Assembly: GCA_947449015.1 (NCBI GenBank)
Contig: CANFQA010000017.1
Span: forward strand, 1-52,357
DNA: 52,357 nucleotides
Direction of reading: 5' to 3'
Source of the DNA: Microthrixaceae bacterium
Lineage (GTDB): Bacteria > Actinomycetota > Acidimicrobiia > Acidimicrobiales > Acidimicrobilacustridaceae
The notes under the pieces were generated by a model. It made no database searches, was not told the origin of the DNA, and saw only the letters and a program-made list of their open reading frames with translations. Shown here piece after piece: positions 13,971 to 36,525 of this stretch. How positions within the stretch are numbered: position 1 is the first letter of the stretch; each line of letters opens with the position of its first letter. The translations under genes were made by a program, and so were the position numbers.

Positions 13971-14022
13971 CAGTACGGATCATCAGTACGCATCATCACT
14001 ACAAATCATCAGTACGAGTTTT
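13971..14022 (+). repeat. 13-bp tandem repeat in the infA leader
   Basis: Four successive 13-mers read CAGTACGGATCAT (13971), CAGTACGCATCAT (13984), CACTACAAATCAT (13997) and CAGTACGAGTTTT (14010). The first two differ at one base; the last diverges in its second half. The array ends 19 nt before the infA start codon. It could be a recent slippage product or a protein or RNA recognition array. Confidence 0.85.
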
Positions 14023-26614: not shown

Positions 26615-27733
26615 GTGCGGGCCGCTCGCGCAGAGGTTGATCTCGGGGCAGTCGTCCGCAATGTGGCGACCCTGCGGTCCGCGGTCGCGCCGGCGCTGTT
26701 CTGCGCAGTTGTGAAAGCTGATGGCTATGGCCACGGTTCGATTGCGGTGAGCGAAGCGATTCTTGCTGCCGGCGCCGACTGGCTTGCCGTTGCACTGGTC
26801 GAGGAGGCCGCAGTGCTGCGCCGGGCGGGGGTCACCGCCCCCATCATGTTGTTGTCGCAACCCCGTTTCGCTGATCTCGATGCTGCAGTGCGTTTCGATC
26901 TGCGCGTCTGTGTCCACACCACTGCCGCTATCGATCTCCTTGCCAATGCGGCACGCGAGCAAAACAGGCAGGTGCTGGTTCATCTCAAGGTAGACACCGG
27001 GATGAACCGGATCGGTGTTGCTCCGGCGGATGCGGTGGCAATGGCACGCGAGATTCAACGGCATCCTGAACTCGAGCTTGAAGGTGTGTTCACCCACTGC
27101 GCGGTAGCCGATGAACTCGACGATCCGTTTACGAACCAGCAGTTCGATCGCTTCGAGCAGGTCCTCGCGGAACTTGCCGCCGTGGGCATCGAACCGCGCA
27201 TTCGCCATGCCGCCAATTCTGCGACTGCGATTGAACATCCGCGGGGTCGTTACGACCTCGTGCGTTGCGGCATCTCGGTCTACGGCATCGCTCCGGCTCC
27301 GGGACTTGCTGTCGGGCTTGGTCTCGAACCAGCGCTCTCGCTTCGCGCCGAGGTTTCGATGGTGAAACGCGTGAGTGCCGGCGAAGGGGTTTCCTACGGA
27401 CTTCGGCACCGATTCGAACGCGACACCAACGTTGCCACAGTGCCTATCGGGTATGCCGATGGCGTACCCCGTCGGTTCGGCCTCAACGGGGGAGAGGTCC
27501 TCATCGGAGGTCGACGTCGATCGGTGGTGGGTGTGGTCACCATGGATCAGCTCATGGTCGATTGTGGTGACGACGTCATTGGCGTGGGTGATGATGTGGT
27601 GCTCATTGGTCGCCAGGGCGACGAGGTCGTGACCGCTGCGGAGTGGGCCGAGGTTCTCGACACCATTGCCTATGAAGTGGTGTGCGGTATCGGTCCGCGC
27701 GTTCCACGCTTCTACCGGCGGGATGACGAATGA
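26615..27733 (+). CDS. alr: Alanine racemase
   Basis: This 372-residue PLP enzyme makes D-alanine for peptidoglycan. The PLP lysine is Lys34 in AVVKADGYGHG and the second catalytic base is Tyr261 in GVSYGLRHRF. HLKVDTGMNRIG, RHAANSATAI and PIGYADGVPRR are family motifs. The start is a GTG 5 nt after the CBS gene; no better start lies upstream. It overlaps tsaE by 4 nt (ATGA). Confidence 0.97.
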   Translation: MRAARAEVDLGAVVRNVATLRSAVAPALFCAVVKADGYGHGSIAVSEAILAAGADWLAVALVEEAAVLRRAGVTAPIMLLSQPRFADLDAAVRFDLRVCVHTTAAIDLLANAAREQNRQVLVHLKVDTGMNRIGVAPADAVAMAREIQRHPELELEGVFTHCAVADELDDPFTNQQFDRFEQVLAELAAVGIEPRIRHAANSATAIEHPRGRYDLVRCGISVYGIAPAPGLAVGLGLEPALSLRAEVSMVKRVSAGEGVSYGLRHRFERDTNVATVPIGYADGVPRRFGLNGGEVLIGGRRRSVVGVVTMDQLMVDCGDDVIGVGDDVVLIGRQGDEVVTAAEWAEVLDTIAYEVVCGIGPRVPRFYRRDDE

Positions 27734-28245
27734 TCTTCGTGCGAACCACTTCGGCGCAGGCCACAAAAGCCGTTGCCGCTGCGCTTGCTGAACTCGCCCG
27801 TCCTGGCGATCTCCTGCTGCTCGCTGGTGATCTGGGTGCGGGCAAAACCGCGTTCACTCAAGGATTCGGTGCTGCGCTCGGTATCGACGAACTCATCACA
27901 AGTCCGACCTTCACGCTGGTCAACACCTACGAGGGTCGTCTCGAACTGAACCATCTCGACGTGTACCGACTTGAGGCGCTGAGCGAGGTACTTGATCTCG
28001 GAGTTCCCGAGATGATCGATGATGGTGGAGTCACGGTCATCGAATGGGGCGATTCGGTAGCGCCAGCGCTGCCGGCTGATTACCTCGAGATTCGCTTCAC
28101 CTACGGCGACTTTGGGGCTGATCCTGGAACCGATGACGTGCGGGTTCTCGAACTCGTGCCGGTTGGTCCACGGTGGTCCGCGCGTATCCGTGCCATCGCG
28201 ACTGCAGTGGCCGAGTGGATCCACGAACCAGATGGTGAGGACTGA
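27730..28245 (+). CDS. tsaE: tRNA t6A synthesis ATPase TsaE
   Basis: This 171-residue P-loop protein has GDLGAGKT (33-40), TSPTFTLVNTYEG and HLDVYRLE followed by VTVIEWGDSV, the TsaE/YjeE pattern. TsaE works with TsaB and TsaD to transfer threonylcarbamoyl to A37 of ANN-decoding tRNAs; all three lie here in one run. It is about 20 residues longer than short family members because of its C-terminus. Confidence 0.96.
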   Translation: MIFVRTTSAQATKAVAAALAELARPGDLLLLAGDLGAGKTAFTQGFGAALGIDELITSPTFTLVNTYEGRLELNHLDVYRLEALSEVLDLGVPEMIDDGGVTVIEWGDSVAPALPADYLEIRFTYGDFGADPGTDDVRVLELVPVGPRWSARIRAIATAVAEWIHEPDGED

Positions 28246-28943
28246 TGCTGATCATCGGGATCGATACCGCCACCGCTCAGGTGAGCGTTGCCATTGGTGG
28301 CCATGAGGGTGTGCTCGCGTTGACCCAGTCGTTGCGGGGTAAGCAGCACGCCGAGGTACTCACCCCAGCGATTCAATTCACCTGTCGCCAGGCTCGTATC
28401 GAACTCTCCGAAATCAGTGTTGTGGCCGTGGATCTCGGACCGGGACTCTTCACCGGCCTCCGTGTCGGTGTCGCCTCGGCCAAGGCCATGGCACATGCCC
28501 TCAACGTTCCGATGATCGGTGTGTCCTCGCTCGATCTGCTCGCCTTCCCAGTTCGGTTCACCTCACGACTCATCGTGGCCACAATCGATGCCCGGCGCGG
28601 CGAACTGTTCTACGCGTTTTACCGACAGGTCCCTGGCGGTGTGCAGCGGATCTCGCCGCATCAGGTTGGCTCGCCTGACGACCTCGCTTCGGAGATTCTC
28701 GCCACCGGCGAGGAGTGCCTGATGGTGGGCGACGGTGCGCAGCGCTATCGCGAAGTGTTCGAGGGACTGAAGAAGATCGAGATTGTGGAAGAAGGCTTTG
28801 CCCATCCCTCAGCGTCATCGCTGGTGATGCTTGCTCATGCGCAGGCGCTGCGCGAGCAGTGGGTGAAGCCGTGGGATCTCCAGCCGCTCTATTTGCGCAA
28901 GCCTGACGCTGAGATCAACTGGACGACAAGGCCCAGTCAATGA
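28245..28943 (+). CDS. tsaB: tRNA t6A synthesis protein TsaB
   Basis: This 232-residue ASKHA-fold protein reads MLIIGIDTATAQVSVAIGG, has QHAEVLTPAIQFTCRQARIE and VDLGPGLFTGLRVGVASAKA, typical of TsaB, which pairs with TsaD. The start overlaps the tsaE stop by one base (TGATG). Its stop is the first link of a chain of ATGA overlaps leading to rimI. Confidence 0.96.
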   Translation: MLIIGIDTATAQVSVAIGGHEGVLALTQSLRGKQHAEVLTPAIQFTCRQARIELSEISVVAVDLGPGLFTGLRVGVASAKAMAHALNVPMIGVSSLDLLAFPVRFTSRLIVATIDARRGELFYAFYRQVPGGVQRISPHQVGSPDDLASEILATGEECLMVGDGAQRYREVFEGLKKIEIVEEGFAHPSASSLVMLAHAQALREQWVKPWDLQPLYLRKPDAEINWTTRPSQ

Positions 28944-28985
28944 GCCCAGAACTATGAGCGCAGAACTATGAGTGCAGAACAATGA
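28940..28985 (+). other. Chain of three overlapping 5-codon mini-ORFs (14-bp tandem repeat)
   Basis: Between tsaB and rimI the 14-bp unit beginning ATGAG recurs at 28940, 28954 and 28968, and rimI starts with the same ATGAG at 28982. Because 14 is not a multiple of 3, each copy opens a new frame and runs only five codons: MSPEL, MSAEL and MSAEQ. Each stop TGA overlaps the next ATG (ATGA), so tsaB and rimI are joined by four stop-start overlaps in a row. It looks like expansion of the original tsaB/rimI overlap. Confidence 0.85.
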
Positions 28986-29623
28986 GTGCGCTGCGGGTGT
29001 CCAGTCTTGGTCGCGAGAGTGCGCCAACGCTTGTGGTCACACAGATGCGTCGTCGCCATCTGCGTTCGGTGCTGCGCATCGAGGAACGCACGAGTTCGAC
29101 GCCATGGTCACTCGGACTCTTCCTCGCCGAGGCCCGTCGTGCTGAACGTATCTATCTGGTGGCCCGCGAGGGTTCCTCCGTGGTCGGGTTCGCGGGGTTG
29201 TTGTTCGCTCTGACTGAAGGTCATGTCACCACCATCGCCGTTGACCCCGATCGTCAGGGAGCGAGGATCGGTACCCGAGTACTGCTGGTTTTGCTGCGCG
29301 AGGCAATCGCTCGCGGTGCCACTGCAATCACTCTTGAGGTCCGCGCCTCGAACCAGGCAGCACAGGCGATGTATCGCCGGTTCGGGTTTGTGCCCGCCGG
29401 TTCACGCAAGGGCTACTACCGCGACCCGGTGGAGGACGCGCTGGTGCTGTGGGCGCACGAGGTTGACTCCGCCGAGTACGGCGGTCGCCTTGATGGCATC
29501 GAAGCCGACCTCGGTGGACCGGTCGTGATTGAACGAATGGCCCGGGTGGAACGTCAGTCCGATGCGTCGACATCTGATGTGCCGACCGTCGGCGAACCGA
29601 CAGAACAGGATCCACGATCATGA
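28982..29623 (+). CDS. rimI: GNAT acetyltransferase, RimI-like
   Basis: This 213-residue protein has the GNAT fold. The acetyl-CoA loop follows the strand HVTTIAVDPDRQGARIGTRV (Q-x-x-x-G-T form), and LEVRASNQAAQAMYRRFGF with YYRDPVEDALVLW matches RimI, which acetylates the N-terminus of S18 and other proteins. Residues about 160-213 are an unusual polar tail. rimI between tsaB and tsaD is a common actinobacterial order. The start is the fourth ATG of a repeated ATGAG series. It overlaps tsaD by 4 nt. Confidence 0.94.
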   Translation: MSALRVSSLGRESAPTLVVTQMRRRHLRSVLRIEERTSSTPWSLGLFLAEARRAERIYLVAREGSSVVGFAGLLFALTEGHVTTIAVDPDRQGARIGTRVLLVLLREAIARGATAITLEVRASNQAAQAMYRRFGFVPAGSRKGYYRDPVEDALVLWAHEVDSAEYGGRLDGIEADLGGPVVIERMARVERQSDASTSDVPTVGEPTEQDPRS

Positions 29624-30627
29624 CCACCCGAGTGCTCGGCATCGAGACCAGTTGTGACGAAACCGCCGCGGCTGTCGTGGTCGACGGGCATCAGGTTCTG
29701 TCCTCAGTGGTGTCGAGTCAGGTTGATCTCCATGCCCGTTTTGGTGGTGTGGTGCCTGAGATCGCCTCTCGAGCACATGTCGAACTGCTCACGCCGGTCG
29801 TCGCCCGCGCCCTCATTGAAGCCGGCATCGATAACGACCATGTCGATGCAGTTGCCGCCACGGTTGGCCCCGGTCTCATCGGGGCATTGCTCGTGGGTGT
29901 GAGCGCGGCCAAGACCCTGGCGCTGGTCTGGGATGTCCCGTTCGTGGCGGTGAACCATCTCGAAGCCCATCTCTATGCGGCATTGCTCGAGGATCCCGAA
30001 ATCGAACTGCCAGTGATTGTTCTGCTGGTTTCGGGGGGCCACACCCTGCTGGTACTTATGGAGGGCCATGGCCGTTATCGCGTGCTTGGCTCCACCATTG
30101 ACGATGCCGCCGGCGAGGCCTTCGACAAGGTGGCGCGCTATTTGGGGCTCGGCTACCCCGGTGGTCCGGCCATCGATGCGATCTCTGATCAGGGTGATCC
30201 TGCGGCTATTGCGTTCCCCCGAGCCATGCTCGCCGAGGGGTATGACTTCTCGTTCTCAGGGCTCAAGACTTCGGTGGTCAATCACGTTCGTCGTAATCCT
30301 GAGGTGGGCACTGCCGATGTGGCGGCCTCGTTCCAGCAGGCGGTTGTCGATGTTCTGGTGACCAAGGCCCGCCGGGCCGCCCATGACCATGGGGCCAAGG
30401 GTCTTTGCCTAGCGGGGGGAGTGGCGGCCAATACCTTGCTGCGCGAGCGCATTCTCGATGTCTGCGTAGCCGATGGGCTGCGGGCGTTCCTGCCCAGCCG
30501 GGCAATGTGCACTGACAATGCCGCCATGGTGGCTGCTGCCGGCTGGTATCGGCTCCAGTCCGATGGACCATCACCGCTCGATACGGGAGCCGATCCCAAT
30601 CTCAGACTGGTTTCAACCCTTCTGTAG
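29620..30627 (+). CDS. tsaD: tRNA t6A transferase TsaD
   Basis: This 335-residue ASKHA protein carries out the final threonylcarbamoyl transfer to tRNA. GIETSCDETAAAVV is at the N-terminus, the metal-binding His113 and His117 are in NHLEAH, LLVSGGHTLLV and DDAAGEAFDKVARYLGLGYP follow, and MCTDNAAMVA carries the last ligand Asp. Length matches the family. The start overlaps rimI by 4 nt (ATGA). Confidence 0.98.
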   Translation: MTTRVLGIETSCDETAAAVVVDGHQVLSSVVSSQVDLHARFGGVVPEIASRAHVELLTPVVARALIEAGIDNDHVDAVAATVGPGLIGALLVGVSAAKTLALVWDVPFVAVNHLEAHLYAALLEDPEIELPVIVLLVSGGHTLLVLMEGHGRYRVLGSTIDDAAGEAFDKVARYLGLGYPGGPAIDAISDQGDPAAIAFPRAMLAEGYDFSFSGLKTSVVNHVRRNPEVGTADVAASFQQAVVDVLVTKARRAAHDHGAKGLCLAGGVAANTLLRERILDVCVADGLRAFLPSRAMCTDNAAMVAAAGWYRLQSDGPSPLDTGADPNLRLVSTLL

Positions 30628-32985: not shown

Positions 32986-35900
32986 ATGTCACGAGTGCGA
33001 CCACACAATCTCATCCTCCTTGTCGTGGTTGTGATCTCTCTTGTTGCGGCATCCAGTGGCTTTGTGGCGACGTTGTCTTCTGCGCAGGGAACCCCACTCA
33101 CCCGAAGTACAGCTTCTGCGCCACTGATCGCGACGCAGGTCACCACGAGTGACGCCGCGTCCTGCGCACTGTTGGACTCCGGTCGCATCAAGTGTTGGGG
33201 CAATGGGCCCCTCGGCTCTGGACTTGGGTTGAGCGCCAGTGCTGTGCCGGTCGATGTTGTTGGTATTTCTGACGCGACCTCGATTACCGGTGGCGGGGAC
33301 TCGATGTGCGCGATCGTCACCGATGGAGCGGTGAAGTGCTGGGGCGGTAACTACTCCGGACAGCTCGGAGATGGGACGCGGACGTTCAGCGACGTTCCCG
33401 TCACCGTGACTGAGCTCACTGAACCGGTGACACAGGTTGTTATGGGAGCTGCGCATGCGTGCGCACTCACGGTTGCGGGTGCCGTGAAGTGCTGGGGCTT
33501 CAACAACGATCAGAAGCTTGGCGACCCAGACTTCCCGGCGGGTGAAGTGTCAACGACTGCAGTCTCGGTGGTCGGACTTGAATCGGGTGTTTCCTCAATC
33601 TCCGCAGGGGTCAATCACACCTGTGCTGTCCTTGACGGTGCTGCGATGTGCTGGGGCCGCAATGATTACGGCGCACTTGGTAACAGTTCCTCGGGCGAAC
33701 TTGTTCAGGTCAAGAATCTTGACAGCGGTGTCGTCAGCGTCGGGGCTGGCCAGGTGCATTCCTGTGCGCTTATGGATACAGGAATCGTGAATTGCTGGGG
33801 CGCCGGATGGGGCGGTGGTGGACTCGGGCGTGGGCCGAACGGCCCTGATGGTGATGCCGTTCCGGGACCGGTTGTGGATCTCACCGACGTTGTGGCGATT
33901 GATGTTGCGCCATCACAGTCATGCGCTCTGACGGCTTCGAGTGACGTGAAGTGCTGGGGCCTCAACAACTCGGGAAGTTTCGCGCTGGGCGAGCCAAATG
34001 TTCACTGGTTCAATTCCCCACAGCTTGCGACTGGGTACCCCAACACTGTTCAAATCTCCGCAGGTAGCGCGCATACCTGTGCGCTTTCGGATACGGGCAA
34101 AGTTCGTTGTTCTGGGAGTAACTGGAATGGCGCATTGGGTGCTGGAAACGTTCCCGATCAGGCCAGCGGCATTGATGTGCTCGGCATCGAAGGAACGCCT
34201 CCTCCGAGTCCATTGATCATGACGTTTGATCCAGTCGTGACCTCCTGCGGAACCTCAACTGCGGGCGTGGGCCTCTCGGGAACCGTCAATGCCACCATTG
34301 ACTGGGGCGATACAACGACCGACATTGTGAGCACTGATGGCGTTACCGAACACACCTATGGAGATTCGTTGGCTCATGAGATCTCGATCTCTGGTTCTGC
34401 CGAGCACTTTTACGCTTCCACCGGACAGTCGGGCGCGAATTGCGTAACGGGTGTCTCGCAGTGGGGAACGCTCGGGCTTACGAGTCTTGCCAATGCGTTC
34501 TATGGGATGCCCAACCTCACCTTGGTGCCCTCGGATCTGCCGGCTTCGGTCACTGATCTCACTTCGATGTTCGAGGGGACGACCTCGTTCAATCAGGACA
34601 TCTCGGATTGGGACACGTCGCATGTCACGTCGATGTCGGGCATGTTTGCTTGGAACCAGTCGTTCGATCAGCCGCTGGATTCTTGGGATGTCTCCAATGT
34701 CACCAATCTCTCCTACATGTTTGGTAACGCTCGCGTGTTCAATCAGCCTCTCAACTCCTGGGACACATCAAGGGCCGGCACGTTTCGGGGAGTGTTTTGG
34801 GATGCCGGCAGTTTCAATCAGGCGTTACCTGACTGGAGTTTCGCCAGTGCGCATATAGCGGCGCTGTGGAACTTCATGAATGGCTCGGTGAGCCCGTACA
34901 ACGTGAGCACATCGTTCATCGGGTGGGCAGGACGTACCCAGAACTCCGGCATCATGGCCTACATCGGTGCTGAGTACGACGAACGCGGCATTGACGCAGT
35001 TGCCAATCTGCGAAGCCAAGGATGGGATCTGCGGGGAACCTATCTGCACGTCCCCCCGACAACGACAACGACGGAAGCTCCGACGACGACAACCACGGAA
35101 GCTCCGACGACGACAACCACGGAAGCTCCGACGACAACCACGGAAGCTCCGACTACGACAACCACGACTGAGCCTCCGACTACGACAACCACGGAAGCTC
35201 CGACGACAACGACGACGGAAGCTCCGACTACGACAACCACGGAAGCTCCGACTACGACGACGACGTTGCCGCCTCCGCCGCCGGATTACACCGTTGAGTT
35301 CTCCTGCGGCGAAGGAACTGGTGCGGCACCGTCACGTCAGTTCGGTCTTCTTCGTTCAACCACGGTGCTTCCGGGTTCGGCAACTCCATGTCGAGCACCG
35401 GCTGGCGCGGAGTTTGAGGGTTGGCGTTGCCTCTCCACCAATGTCGCTGCTGGCGGTGACTACCTCATCGACGGAGATTCCCTGTGTACTGCGCGCTGGA
35501 GGCAGCTTGAGGTACCCCCTTCATCAACGACTGTTCCGGTTACAGCCGAACCGCCTCCGACAACACCGCCTCCATCAACACCGCCTGCGACCACTCCGCC
35601 TGTGACCACGCCGGCTCCGACAACGCCGCCGGCGACCTCTGTGACGGTAACAACTCCGCCTGCGACAATTCCTGCGCCGACCTCTCCGCCCGTAGCGAGT
35701 GATCCATCGGTGAGTAATGCCGCCGAGCTTGCTGCACTCAATGCAGCGCTCATGTCGCCGACCGCAACATCGAGTGATGTCCAAGCAGCGGTAGAAGATC
35801 TCCTGAACGCGGGTGTGAGTGGCTCGCAGGCAGCGGAATTGGCGACGAACCCGAAGGTGCTGGCGAGCATTGACTCGAAACAGGCAAAGGCCATTTTCAA

Positions 35901-36525
35901 GAAGGTTCCTGTTTCCAAGCTCAACGGCGAGCAGGAGGCTGCACTTGTCGCCGCAGTGAGTGCCGCTCCCCAAGGCGTGAAGAACGCGTTCGAGGGGTCG
36001 ATCGATGTGTACGGCGCTGGCCTGGATCGCTACGTGCCGGTTGGTTCGGTTGTTGATGTTGGAGATCGGCGCACGCTGATCGCTGCTGCGGCAGTCACCG
36101 CGGTTGCTGGAGCGGCGGCGGCAGGATCAGTGAGTAGCCGAGTTATGTCTCCGCGTGCTGGGGCCGGTGACGACTCGGGAGGTTCAGGCCCGAGGGTGCC
36201 CACCGGCGCGGACACGTTGAACGAGGCGCAAATGGCTTCAGTGGCCCGGCGGATGGGTCGAGGAATGATGAAAAAGCAGTCAGATCAACCAAATAGATTG
36301 AACTTGGACGGAGAAGAAGATATGGCCGATACACGAGCACCACTTTCGAAAATCTTCAGACGACTCGTGCGTGAAACTGCAGCAATTGGTTTCACAATTG
36401 CCGGTGGTGTTGTCGTGATCTTCACGCTGTCGGGAGATACACGGAAAGTGGCGATGATCGCACTTGGCACCGCGTTTGTTCTCCACGTCGCACATGTGGT
36501 GATGACGACATCATCATCTGAGTAG
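32986..36525 (+). CDS. Large secreted/anchored RCC1-repeat and DUF285-repeat protein
   Basis: This 1179-residue surface protein is not recognised as a named gene. In order: a signal or anchor helix (8-30); seven RCC1-type repeats (about 58-395), each with a CALxxxGxVKCWG-like core; a short PKD-like segment (about 410-490); and three or four BspA-type DUF285 repeats (about 500-635; FNQDISDWDTSHVTSMSGMF is one). A TTTTEAP linker follows (691-760), then a small Cys-containing domain (768-840), a second Pro/Thr linker (844-903), a helical region (908-1010) and a C-terminal part with three hydrophobic segments (1031-1049, 1131-1150, 1153-1173). DUF285 and RCC1 repeats usually mediate protein contacts. 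The base composition, especially after about 36260, is more AT-rich than the neighbours. It occupies the place between groEL and guaB3, which suggests insertion. Confidence 0.9.
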   Translation: MSRVRPHNLILLVVVVISLVAASSGFVATLSSAQGTPLTRSTASAPLIATQVTTSDAASCALLDSGRIKCWGNGPLGSGLGLSASAVPVDVVGISDATSITGGGDSMCAIVTDGAVKCWGGNYSGQLGDGTRTFSDVPVTVTELTEPVTQVVMGAAHACALTVAGAVKCWGFNNDQKLGDPDFPAGEVSTTAVSVVGLESGVSSISAGVNHTCAVLDGAAMCWGRNDYGALGNSSSGELVQVKNLDSGVVSVGAGQVHSCALMDTGIVNCWGAGWGGGGLGRGPNGPDGDAVPGPVVDLTDVVAIDVAPSQSCALTASSDVKCWGLNNSGSFALGEPNVHWFNSPQLATGYPNTVQISAGSAHTCALSDTGKVRCSGSNWNGALGAGNVPDQASGIDVLGIEGTPPPSPLIMTFDPVVTSCGTSTAGVGLSGTVNATIDWGDTTTDIVSTDGVTEHTYGDSLAHEISISGSAEHFYASTGQSGANCVTGVSQWGTLGLTSLANAFYGMPNLTLVPSDLPASVTDLTSMFEGTTSFNQDISDWDTSHVTSMSGMFAWNQSFDQPLDSWDVSNVTNLSYMFGNARVFNQPLNSWDTSRAGTFRGVFWDAGSFNQALPDWSFASAHIAALWNFMNGSVSPYNVSTSFIGWAGRTQNSGIMAYIGAEYDERGIDAVANLRSQGWDLRGTYLHVPPTTTTTEAPTTTTTEAPTTTTTEAPTTTTEAPTTTTTTEPPTTTTTEAPTTTTTEAPTTTTTEAPTTTTTLPPPPPDYTVEFSCGEGTGAAPSRQFGLLRSTTVLPGSATPCRAPAGAEFEGWRCLSTNVAAGGDYLIDGDSLCTARWRQLEVPPSSTTVPVTAEPPPTTPPPSTPPATTPPVTTPAPTTPPATSVTVTTPPATIPAPTSPPVASDPSVSNAAELAALNAALMSPTATSSDVQAAVEDLLNAGVSGSQAAELATNPKVLASIDSKQAKAIFKKVPVSKLNGEQEAALVAAVSAAPQGVKNAFEGSIDVYGAGLDRYVPVGSVVDVGDRRTLIAAAAVTAVAGAAAAGSVSSRVMSPRAGAGDDSGGSGPRVPTGADTLNEAQMASVARRMGRGMMKKQSDQPNRLNLDGEEDMADTRAPLSKIFRRLVRETAAIGFTIAGGVVVIFTLSGDTRKVAMIALGTAFVLHVAHVVMTTSSSE
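35056..35265 (+). repeat. Coding tandem repeat for TTTTEAP linker
   Basis: About eight 21-24-nt units encode (T)nEAP, with codons such as ACGACAACC and GAAGCTCCG. Such Thr/Pro repeats act as extended, often glycosylated stalks in actinobacterial surface proteins and are prone to length change by slippage. Confidence 0.9.

Follow-up and report, generated by a model that had tools for sequence, protein, structure and literature searches.

The junction between tsaB and rimI in this Microthrixaceae bacterium raises the question of how a single gene boundary came to carry four stop-start overlaps in a row, and whether ribosomes leaving tsaB reach rimI by passing along them. In the window (the whole stretch of 52,357 nucleotides that was analysed), all four stop-start steps of the junction are 4-nt ATGA overlaps (at 28940, 28954, 28968 and 28982), with the tsaB stop TGA at 28941-28943 lying within the first of them. 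The mini-ORFs of the array are 5 codons long, and each ends at a stop 15 nt past its own start and within the next ATGA. The head of rimI, ATGAGTGCG, begins at 28982, which leaves a gap of 38 nt between the tsaB stop and the rimI start. The first-pass annotation had described a chain of ATGA overlaps running from tsaB through MSPEL, MSAEL and MSAEQ to rimI, and direct reading of the sequence together with an ORF check showed this description to be exact. The geometry of termination-reinitiation, a 4- or 1-nt overlap of stop and start, was thus found at all four ATGA nodes.

Features of the tsaB/rimI junction and of the neighbouring genes, in window positions.
Feature	Position	Strand	Evidence and remarks
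Alanine racemase gene	26615-27733		Pfam Ala_racemase_N, 1.3e-70; 4-nt overlap with tsaE
tsaE	27730-28245	+	Pfam TsaE, 9e-37; 1-nt overlap with tsaB
tsaB	28245-28943	+	ORF; Pfam PF00814, 1.9e-31; t6A biosynthesis subunit
Repeat unit 1, ATGAGCCCAGAACT	28940-28953	+	ATGA node 1; mini-ORF MSPEL-stop, 28940-28957
Repeat unit 2, ATGAGCGCAGAACT	28954-28967	+	ATGA node 2; mini-ORF MSAEL-stop, 28954-28971
Repeat unit 3, ATGAGTGCAGAACA	28968-28981	+	ATGA node 3; mini-ORF MSAEQ-stop, 28968-28985
rimI-like GNAT acetyltransferase gene	28982-29623	+	Pfam PF00583, 2.8e-18; start is ATGA node 4
tsaD	29620-30627	+	Pfam TsaD, 4.3e-98; start shares 4 nt (ATGA) with rimI stop

The upstream gene is presumably tsaB, a name that we took from its Pfam family and the gene order; PF00814 is the TsaD family, to which TsaB belongs. 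By coordinates, the array junction is one link of an overlapped chain that runs from the alanine racemase gene through tsaE, tsaB and rimI to tsaD. TsaD works together with TsaB in making t6A, and RimI is dispensable in E. coli. Because tsaD stands behind rimI in one chain, heavy loss of ribosomes at the array would be costly, unless tsaD (anti-Shine-Dalgarno duplex energy of -4.1 at its start) initiates independently.

Tandem Repeats Finder reported the array on the window as 28940-28986, with a period of 14, 3.4 copies and a score of 73. The four-ATGA pattern had a single instance in the window, and 100 dinucleotide shuffles gave none; the unit pattern ATGAGNNCAGAACNATGAG had three matches in the 2.38-Mb assembly, all of them the array's own units. 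The array is therefore exact and non-random. A dispersed element was ruled out, since the unit is confined to the array locus within the assembly.

The history of the junction was examined in the genus, where the search covered 21 genomes including that of the window. tsaB followed by rimI was found at 17 loci in 16 other genomes, while the loci returned from the remaining four (G011, G012, G013 and G017) were weak, paralogue-level matches only. The array was missing from all 17 orthologous junctions in these 16 congeneric genomes. The nearest three (L003, L004 and L005, with TsaB 94-96% identical) had a single plain ATGA overlap, straight after which the RimI N-terminus read MSAMR, MSALR and MNALR, respectively. 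The window rimI begins at 28982 with MSALR and matches the same pattern, M[SN]A[LM]R, and on this resemblance 28982 is likely to be the old rimI start. A GTGA overlap was present at six of the 17 congeneric junctions (L006, L007, L009, L010, L018 and L023) and an ATG 2 nt past the stop at eight (L008 and L011-L017), L011 having a TTGA overlap besides. Every one of the 17 thus had a candidate start between -4 and +2 nt from the tsaB stop. Because the congeneric junctions are all closely spaced, close stop-start spacing is ancestral and the array is a gain in the window's lineage; among congeners, the array is specific to that lineage. Unit 3 and the rimI head have ATGAGTGC in common. The simplest route to the array was apparently tandem duplication of the junction, with slippage as the presumed mutational route.

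Copy number was compared at two other junctions where we found arrays of the same period, with one genome per species. The ABC-transporter permease junction of genome G367 was searched across its genus, and some match, paralogues included, was returned by 120 of 121 genomes. From these 120 we sampled 50 loci, namely the best 30 and 20 chosen among the next best, with G490 outside the sample. The upstream stop lay inside an NTGA overlap at all 50 loci (48 ATGA and 2 TTGA). One node was found at 41 loci, two nodes at five (L302, L310, L314, L317 and L321, each with one extra 14-bp unit) and seven nodes at one (G367), while three loci did not fit; the walk into the downstream frame failed at L373 and L380. 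The permease-junction tree was built from 46 rows, after four rows that were too short had been dropped. G367 and L302 formed a clade with support of 100/100, and the other four two-node loci fell in a separate clade (91/92) together with one single-node member. As the loci with extra units stand in two places of the tree, at least two gains fit best, which suggests that extra units arose independently at least twice at this junction.

Two permease loci differed from the rest in other ways. L329 (G521) had an insertion of about 1.3 kb at its TTGA stop-start overlap, and L303 (G429), counted among the 41 one-node loci, had 48 bp of a 12-bp repeat that lengthens the downstream N-terminus in frame.

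At the alaS/ruvX junction we walked 30 loci and found four nodes in G248, two nodes at L332, L339 and L347, one node at ten loci and none at 16. Since more than half of these loci (16/30) were without an overlap chain, the overlap at this junction comes and goes. The three two-node loci each had a lone extra five-codon ORF with 14 nt between the overlapped starts, and their sequences were unlike. The copy number of such 14-bp units, which the first-pass annotation had taken as the setting of a dial, thus varied unit by unit between related species, as seen at the G367 and alaS/ruvX junctions only.

Arrays of four ATGA were counted in 396 genomes of the phylum, and were found with a period of 14 bp in 9 genomes, 13 bp in 1, 11 bp in 13 and 10 bp in 3. 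The comparison of 14 with 13 bp (9/396 vs 1/396) gave a Fisher P of 0.02, which rose to 0.04 when the window genome was omitted. A reversed-pattern control of the same scan returned 4, 3, 2 and 4 of the 396 genomes at 14, 13, 11 and 10 bp, so that the raw count of nine is not much above the repeat background and the counts are modest evidence. The position of the arrays at gene junctions is stronger evidence than their number. In four of the nine period-14 genomes (the window's, G367, G248 and G149) the array lay exactly between two Pfam-supported genes, and in the other five it did not. G367 had seven nodes between the genes of its permease pair, G248 had four nodes with diverged units between alaS and ruvX, and G149 had five nodes with spacings of 11, 14, 14 and 14 between coaE and a HAD hydrolase gene, with Pfam matches for both genes in each case. 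Arrays led into a Pfam-supported gene start in three further genomes: that of an epimerase in G297, that of a PLP enzyme in G373, where the array has a 7-bp sub-unit, and that of a phosphorylase in G309, where the gene starts one unit downstream of the array (L044, about 1500-1560; ATGAGGAGGGAACT, with a strong Shine-Dalgarno sequence per unit). The period-14 array of G163 had no Pfam match behind it. The G139 array was rejected as a relay, as its mini-ORFs end early.

The G367 locus (L042/L301) carries its seven ATGA nodes on an identical unit, ATGAGGAGTCAGCG (MRSQR and a stop), each with an SD-like GAGGAG. The relay array of G367 is cleaner than that of the window.

ORF lengths gave no gene-array-gene anatomy in any of the four genomes with arrays of period 10 or 13, and a phase test on these few genomes (3/8 vs 0/4 for the 10- and 13-bp arrays) was non-significant (P = 0.49). 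The 11-bp period is likewise 2 mod 3, and eight of its 13 genomes belong to one family, f25. The repeats of these eight genomes (L285-L292, L294 and L295) are diverged, spaced at 11 bp, ATGAATCC-like and intergenic, and are not obviously at gene starts. The period-11 arrays were rejected as further relays, as ORF lengths and inspection gave a convincing gene-array-gene arrangement at 0 of 16 loci; Pfam searches on both sides of L288 and with the downstream ORFs of L281, L287 and L295 gave no match. In viral contigs, the 14-bp scan returned at least 119 stretches with at least 159 arrays and the 13-bp scan 109 stretches with 117 arrays. No 14-bp excess was found there, with two of the 159 listed arrays strict by ORF length vs one of 117 at 13 bp, and a Pfam search with four ORFs taken from the three strict arrays gave no match.

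In the window's own family, four-ATGA arrays of period 14 were present in 3 of 37 genomes, namely the window's, G007 (a chance-like run) and G024. The six-node array of G024 (L037) starts at the stop of an ORF of at least 495 codons, upstream of rpsB; its last ATG opens a 66-codon ORF, the stop of which overlaps the rpsB start. A broader RTGA scan of the family gave 6/37 genomes at 14 bp and 2/37 at 13 bp, and no second gene-array-gene case with Pfam support on both sides. The flanking ORFs of the RTGA candidates L384, L386 and L390, except the 45-codon one downstream at L390, were put to Pfam, and a match was obtained for the upstream ORF of L386 alone. Tandem repeats of period 14 and of period 13 are both abundant in G024, and part of the recurrence is therefore explained simply by repeat density. 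An exact-pattern scan of a collection of 84,980 species, from which records of the window genome or near it were possibly excluded, returned one match, in a deltaproteobacterial MAG; by our estimate, a single match to a 19-base pattern in such a collection is expected by chance. Judged from sequence, the array is a real and lineage-specific feature, rare but recurrent in the phylum, for which a translational relay is plausible.

We then considered the initiation signals. A search for Shine-Dalgarno motifs gave none at the nodes of the window array, where the duplex energies were -3.0, -1.9, -1.9 and -2.2; the background mean was -3.4, and six further gene starts in the window ranged from -4.1 to -6.6. 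At L003, L004 and L005 the plain overlaps had energies of -2.7, -5.4 and -2.7, and two of the three were without a Shine-Dalgarno motif. A Shine-Dalgarno motif preceded every node in three other arrays: G367 (-7.8 to -7.9), G248 (-5.0 to -7.9) and L044 (-11.7 throughout, apart from -6.3 at node 1). The G149 array had -8.1 at its first node and then merely -3.3 to -3.7. RNA structure at the window junction was ruled out as an explanation, with a folding z of 0.02. In E. coli overlaps, loss of the Shine-Dalgarno sequence is reported to lower reinitiation by 60-90% in three gene pairs and to be fatal in a fourth (PMC6728339). As the window array is without such a motif, these data weigh against a relay.

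The reading that we prefer, and hold to be reasonably probable, is that an ancestral 4-nt overlap grew by 14-bp tandem duplication and that the array persists mainly because a relay keeps rimI coupled. An ancestral tsaB/rimI ATGA overlap would have gained three extra 14-bp units by tandem duplication. Each copy remakes the stop-start overlap because 14 is 2 mod 3, the unit starts with ATGA and the mini-ORF frame is otherwise free of stops. A ribosome finishing tsaB would then terminate and reinitiate four times, making MSPEL, MSAEL and MSAEQ before RimI. Such a relay would keep rimI coupled and, via the next ATGA overlap, tsaD also, and the array would persist. Some loss of ribosomes may be expected at each step. 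By arithmetic, if a fraction f were passed per step, three extra steps would give f cubed (0.73 at f = 0.9 and 0.13 at f = 0.5).

Published work on coupling bears on this path. According to PMC10666635, the final 15 nt of the upstream gene suffice for reinitiation in E. coli, a gap of +14 nt lowers it by 40-80%, and a gap of +38 nt lowers it by 80-90% in two pairs and abolishes it in a third; in Haloferax, coupling was lost wholly or almost wholly in three native pairs once the gap was 22-23 nt. A review reports a phage gene pair with two starts in which only the start closest to the stop was used (PMC12548453). Since a 38-nt gap is mostly fatal to coupling in E. coli, and since the phage pair used the nearest start, a relay is the best-supported path for coupled ribosomes, and we infer that ribosomes most likely use the mini-ORFs in this way to reach rimI. 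The repeated ribosome restarts proposed in the first-pass annotation thus stand as to their geometry, which is real, at a junction without Shine-Dalgarno motifs, while their use by ribosomes is a likelihood. The length of the mini-ORFs is a further consideration. An upstream nonsense ORF in E. coli is reported to boost its target only at 8-10 codons or longer (PMC13255528), and given this minimum ORFs of five codons may relay poorly. A 2-codon minigene is reported to have raised a downstream gene about 7-fold (PMC8708949).

The same neutral duplication could also have occurred with no relay, if post-termination ribosomes reach 28982 by sliding or hopping, either from the stop of tsaB or from one of the stops in between, and mostly skip the mini-ORFs. 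We consider this unlikely. Other systems are reported to reinitiate over long distances (work cited in PMC10666635), and nodes just 14 nt apart are in the range of partial coupling. However, the gaps of 22-23 nt in Haloferax and of 38 nt in E. coli, three native pairs each, nearly or fully abolished coupling (PMC10666635), and the phage pair used only its nearest start (PMC12548453). That rimI initiates de novo at 28982, with the array as an inert spacer, is quite unlikely. RimI is non-essential in E. coli, so weak expression from such a start would be enough. E. coli bioF and part of menH translation are reported to be de novo despite an overlap (PMC6728339). However, no Shine-Dalgarno motif was found at 28982 (-2.2 vs the background of -3.4), the ordinary folding of the junction means that nothing special exposes the rimI start, and all 17 congeneric junctions have a start between -4 and +2 nt relative to the end of tsaB.

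Other readings give the number of units a role. The first-pass annotation had proposed copy number as a dial for the RimI:TsaB ratio. As a selected dial or a phase-variable switch this is very unlikely: that related species differ by whole units at the G367 junction speaks for it, as does the mutability of tandem arrays in principle, but the array is missing at all the congeneric junctions, extra units elsewhere look sporadic (6/50 loci at the G367 junction), and strong damping would hit tsaD, which encodes the partner of TsaB, unless tsaD starts by itself. We found no sign of copy number being tuned, and the claim is unsupported. A more general proposal is that relay arrays are recurrent, evolvable attenuators, in which 2-mod-3 duplications keep coupling, each added unit lowers the ratio of downstream to upstream protein by a fixed factor, and lineages tune stoichiometry by 14-bp units; this we hold to be distinctly unlikely. 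Given the possible cost to tsaD of heavy ribosome loss, near-neutral growth made tolerable by the relay is favoured over a dial. An assembly or binning artefact is extremely improbable. The window comes from a draft assembly in 86 contigs, but the array is just 42 bp long and its three units are non-identical, which makes assembly collapse unlikely, and the same anatomy is present in other assemblies, some of them of one or two contigs (G248 and G367).

The nearest precedent is the mycobacterial interspersed repetitive unit (MIRU), an inserted ORF at a gene start that is coupled via a -4 overlap (PMC12548453). The senX3-regX3 locus is reported to have three 77-bp MIRU copies in H37Rv vs two 77-bp copies and one of 53 bp in CDC1551 (PMC4213456). 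The statement in the first-pass annotation that no such case had been described was thus wrong for the general kind. Compared from descriptions, the two resemble each other in having a short ORF at a gene start with a -4 overlap and several copies between two genes, and the MIRU lengths, 77 and 53, have the same residue as 14, namely 2 mod 3. They differ in that MIRUs are 53-77 bp long, dispersed and apparently mobile, whereas the array unit is 14 bp long, is found at a single locus and looks locally duplicated. The array shares the coupling geometry of a 53-77 bp unit with a -4-coupled ORF, but its unit, at 14 bp, is too short, and the three ATGAGNNCAGAACNATGAG matches in the assembly all lie inside the array. 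The window array is not a MIRU.

Among prokaryotic gene spacings the -4 overlap (ATGA) is the most frequent (PMC10666635), and every array node has the same -4 geometry as ordinary termination-reinitiation. Ordinarily a single step joins two real genes, while the array has four successive steps through 5-codon ORFs. Bicistronic designs, nonsense leaders and minigenes are alike in that a short ORF delivers a ribosome or raises translation (PMC12548453, PMC13255528, PMC8708949), but these are synthetic or single, and neither tandem nor grown from their own junction. Among the top-ranked matches in the open-licence literature, judged by titles and abstract openings, no short tandem stop-start array of such a kind was described.

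If a 5-codon relay is true, the arrays would offer a natural graded series (1, 2, 4, 5 and 7 nodes) for measuring how efficient one termination-reinitiation step is and how much it loses, a matter still debated between scanning and strict overlap. A relay would further account for how tandem duplication can be taken up by a 4-nt overlap and the downstream gene still be translated. Growth by a period of 2 mod 3 would then keep the relay and growth by 1 mod 3 should break the coupling, while growth by 0 mod 3 lengthens the downstream N-terminus, as at L303.

The window has other repeats away from the tsaB/rimI junction. Tandem Repeats Finder reported a 13-bp repeat, CAGTACGAATCAT, in 3.6 copies at 13971-14017, between two ORFs that are presumably map-like and IF-1-like. 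A 24-bp repeat at 35056-35265 and a 15/45-bp repeat at 35550-35668 encode Thr/Pro-rich stretches of an 1179-aa ORF (32986-36525), which presumably carries RCC1-like repeats.
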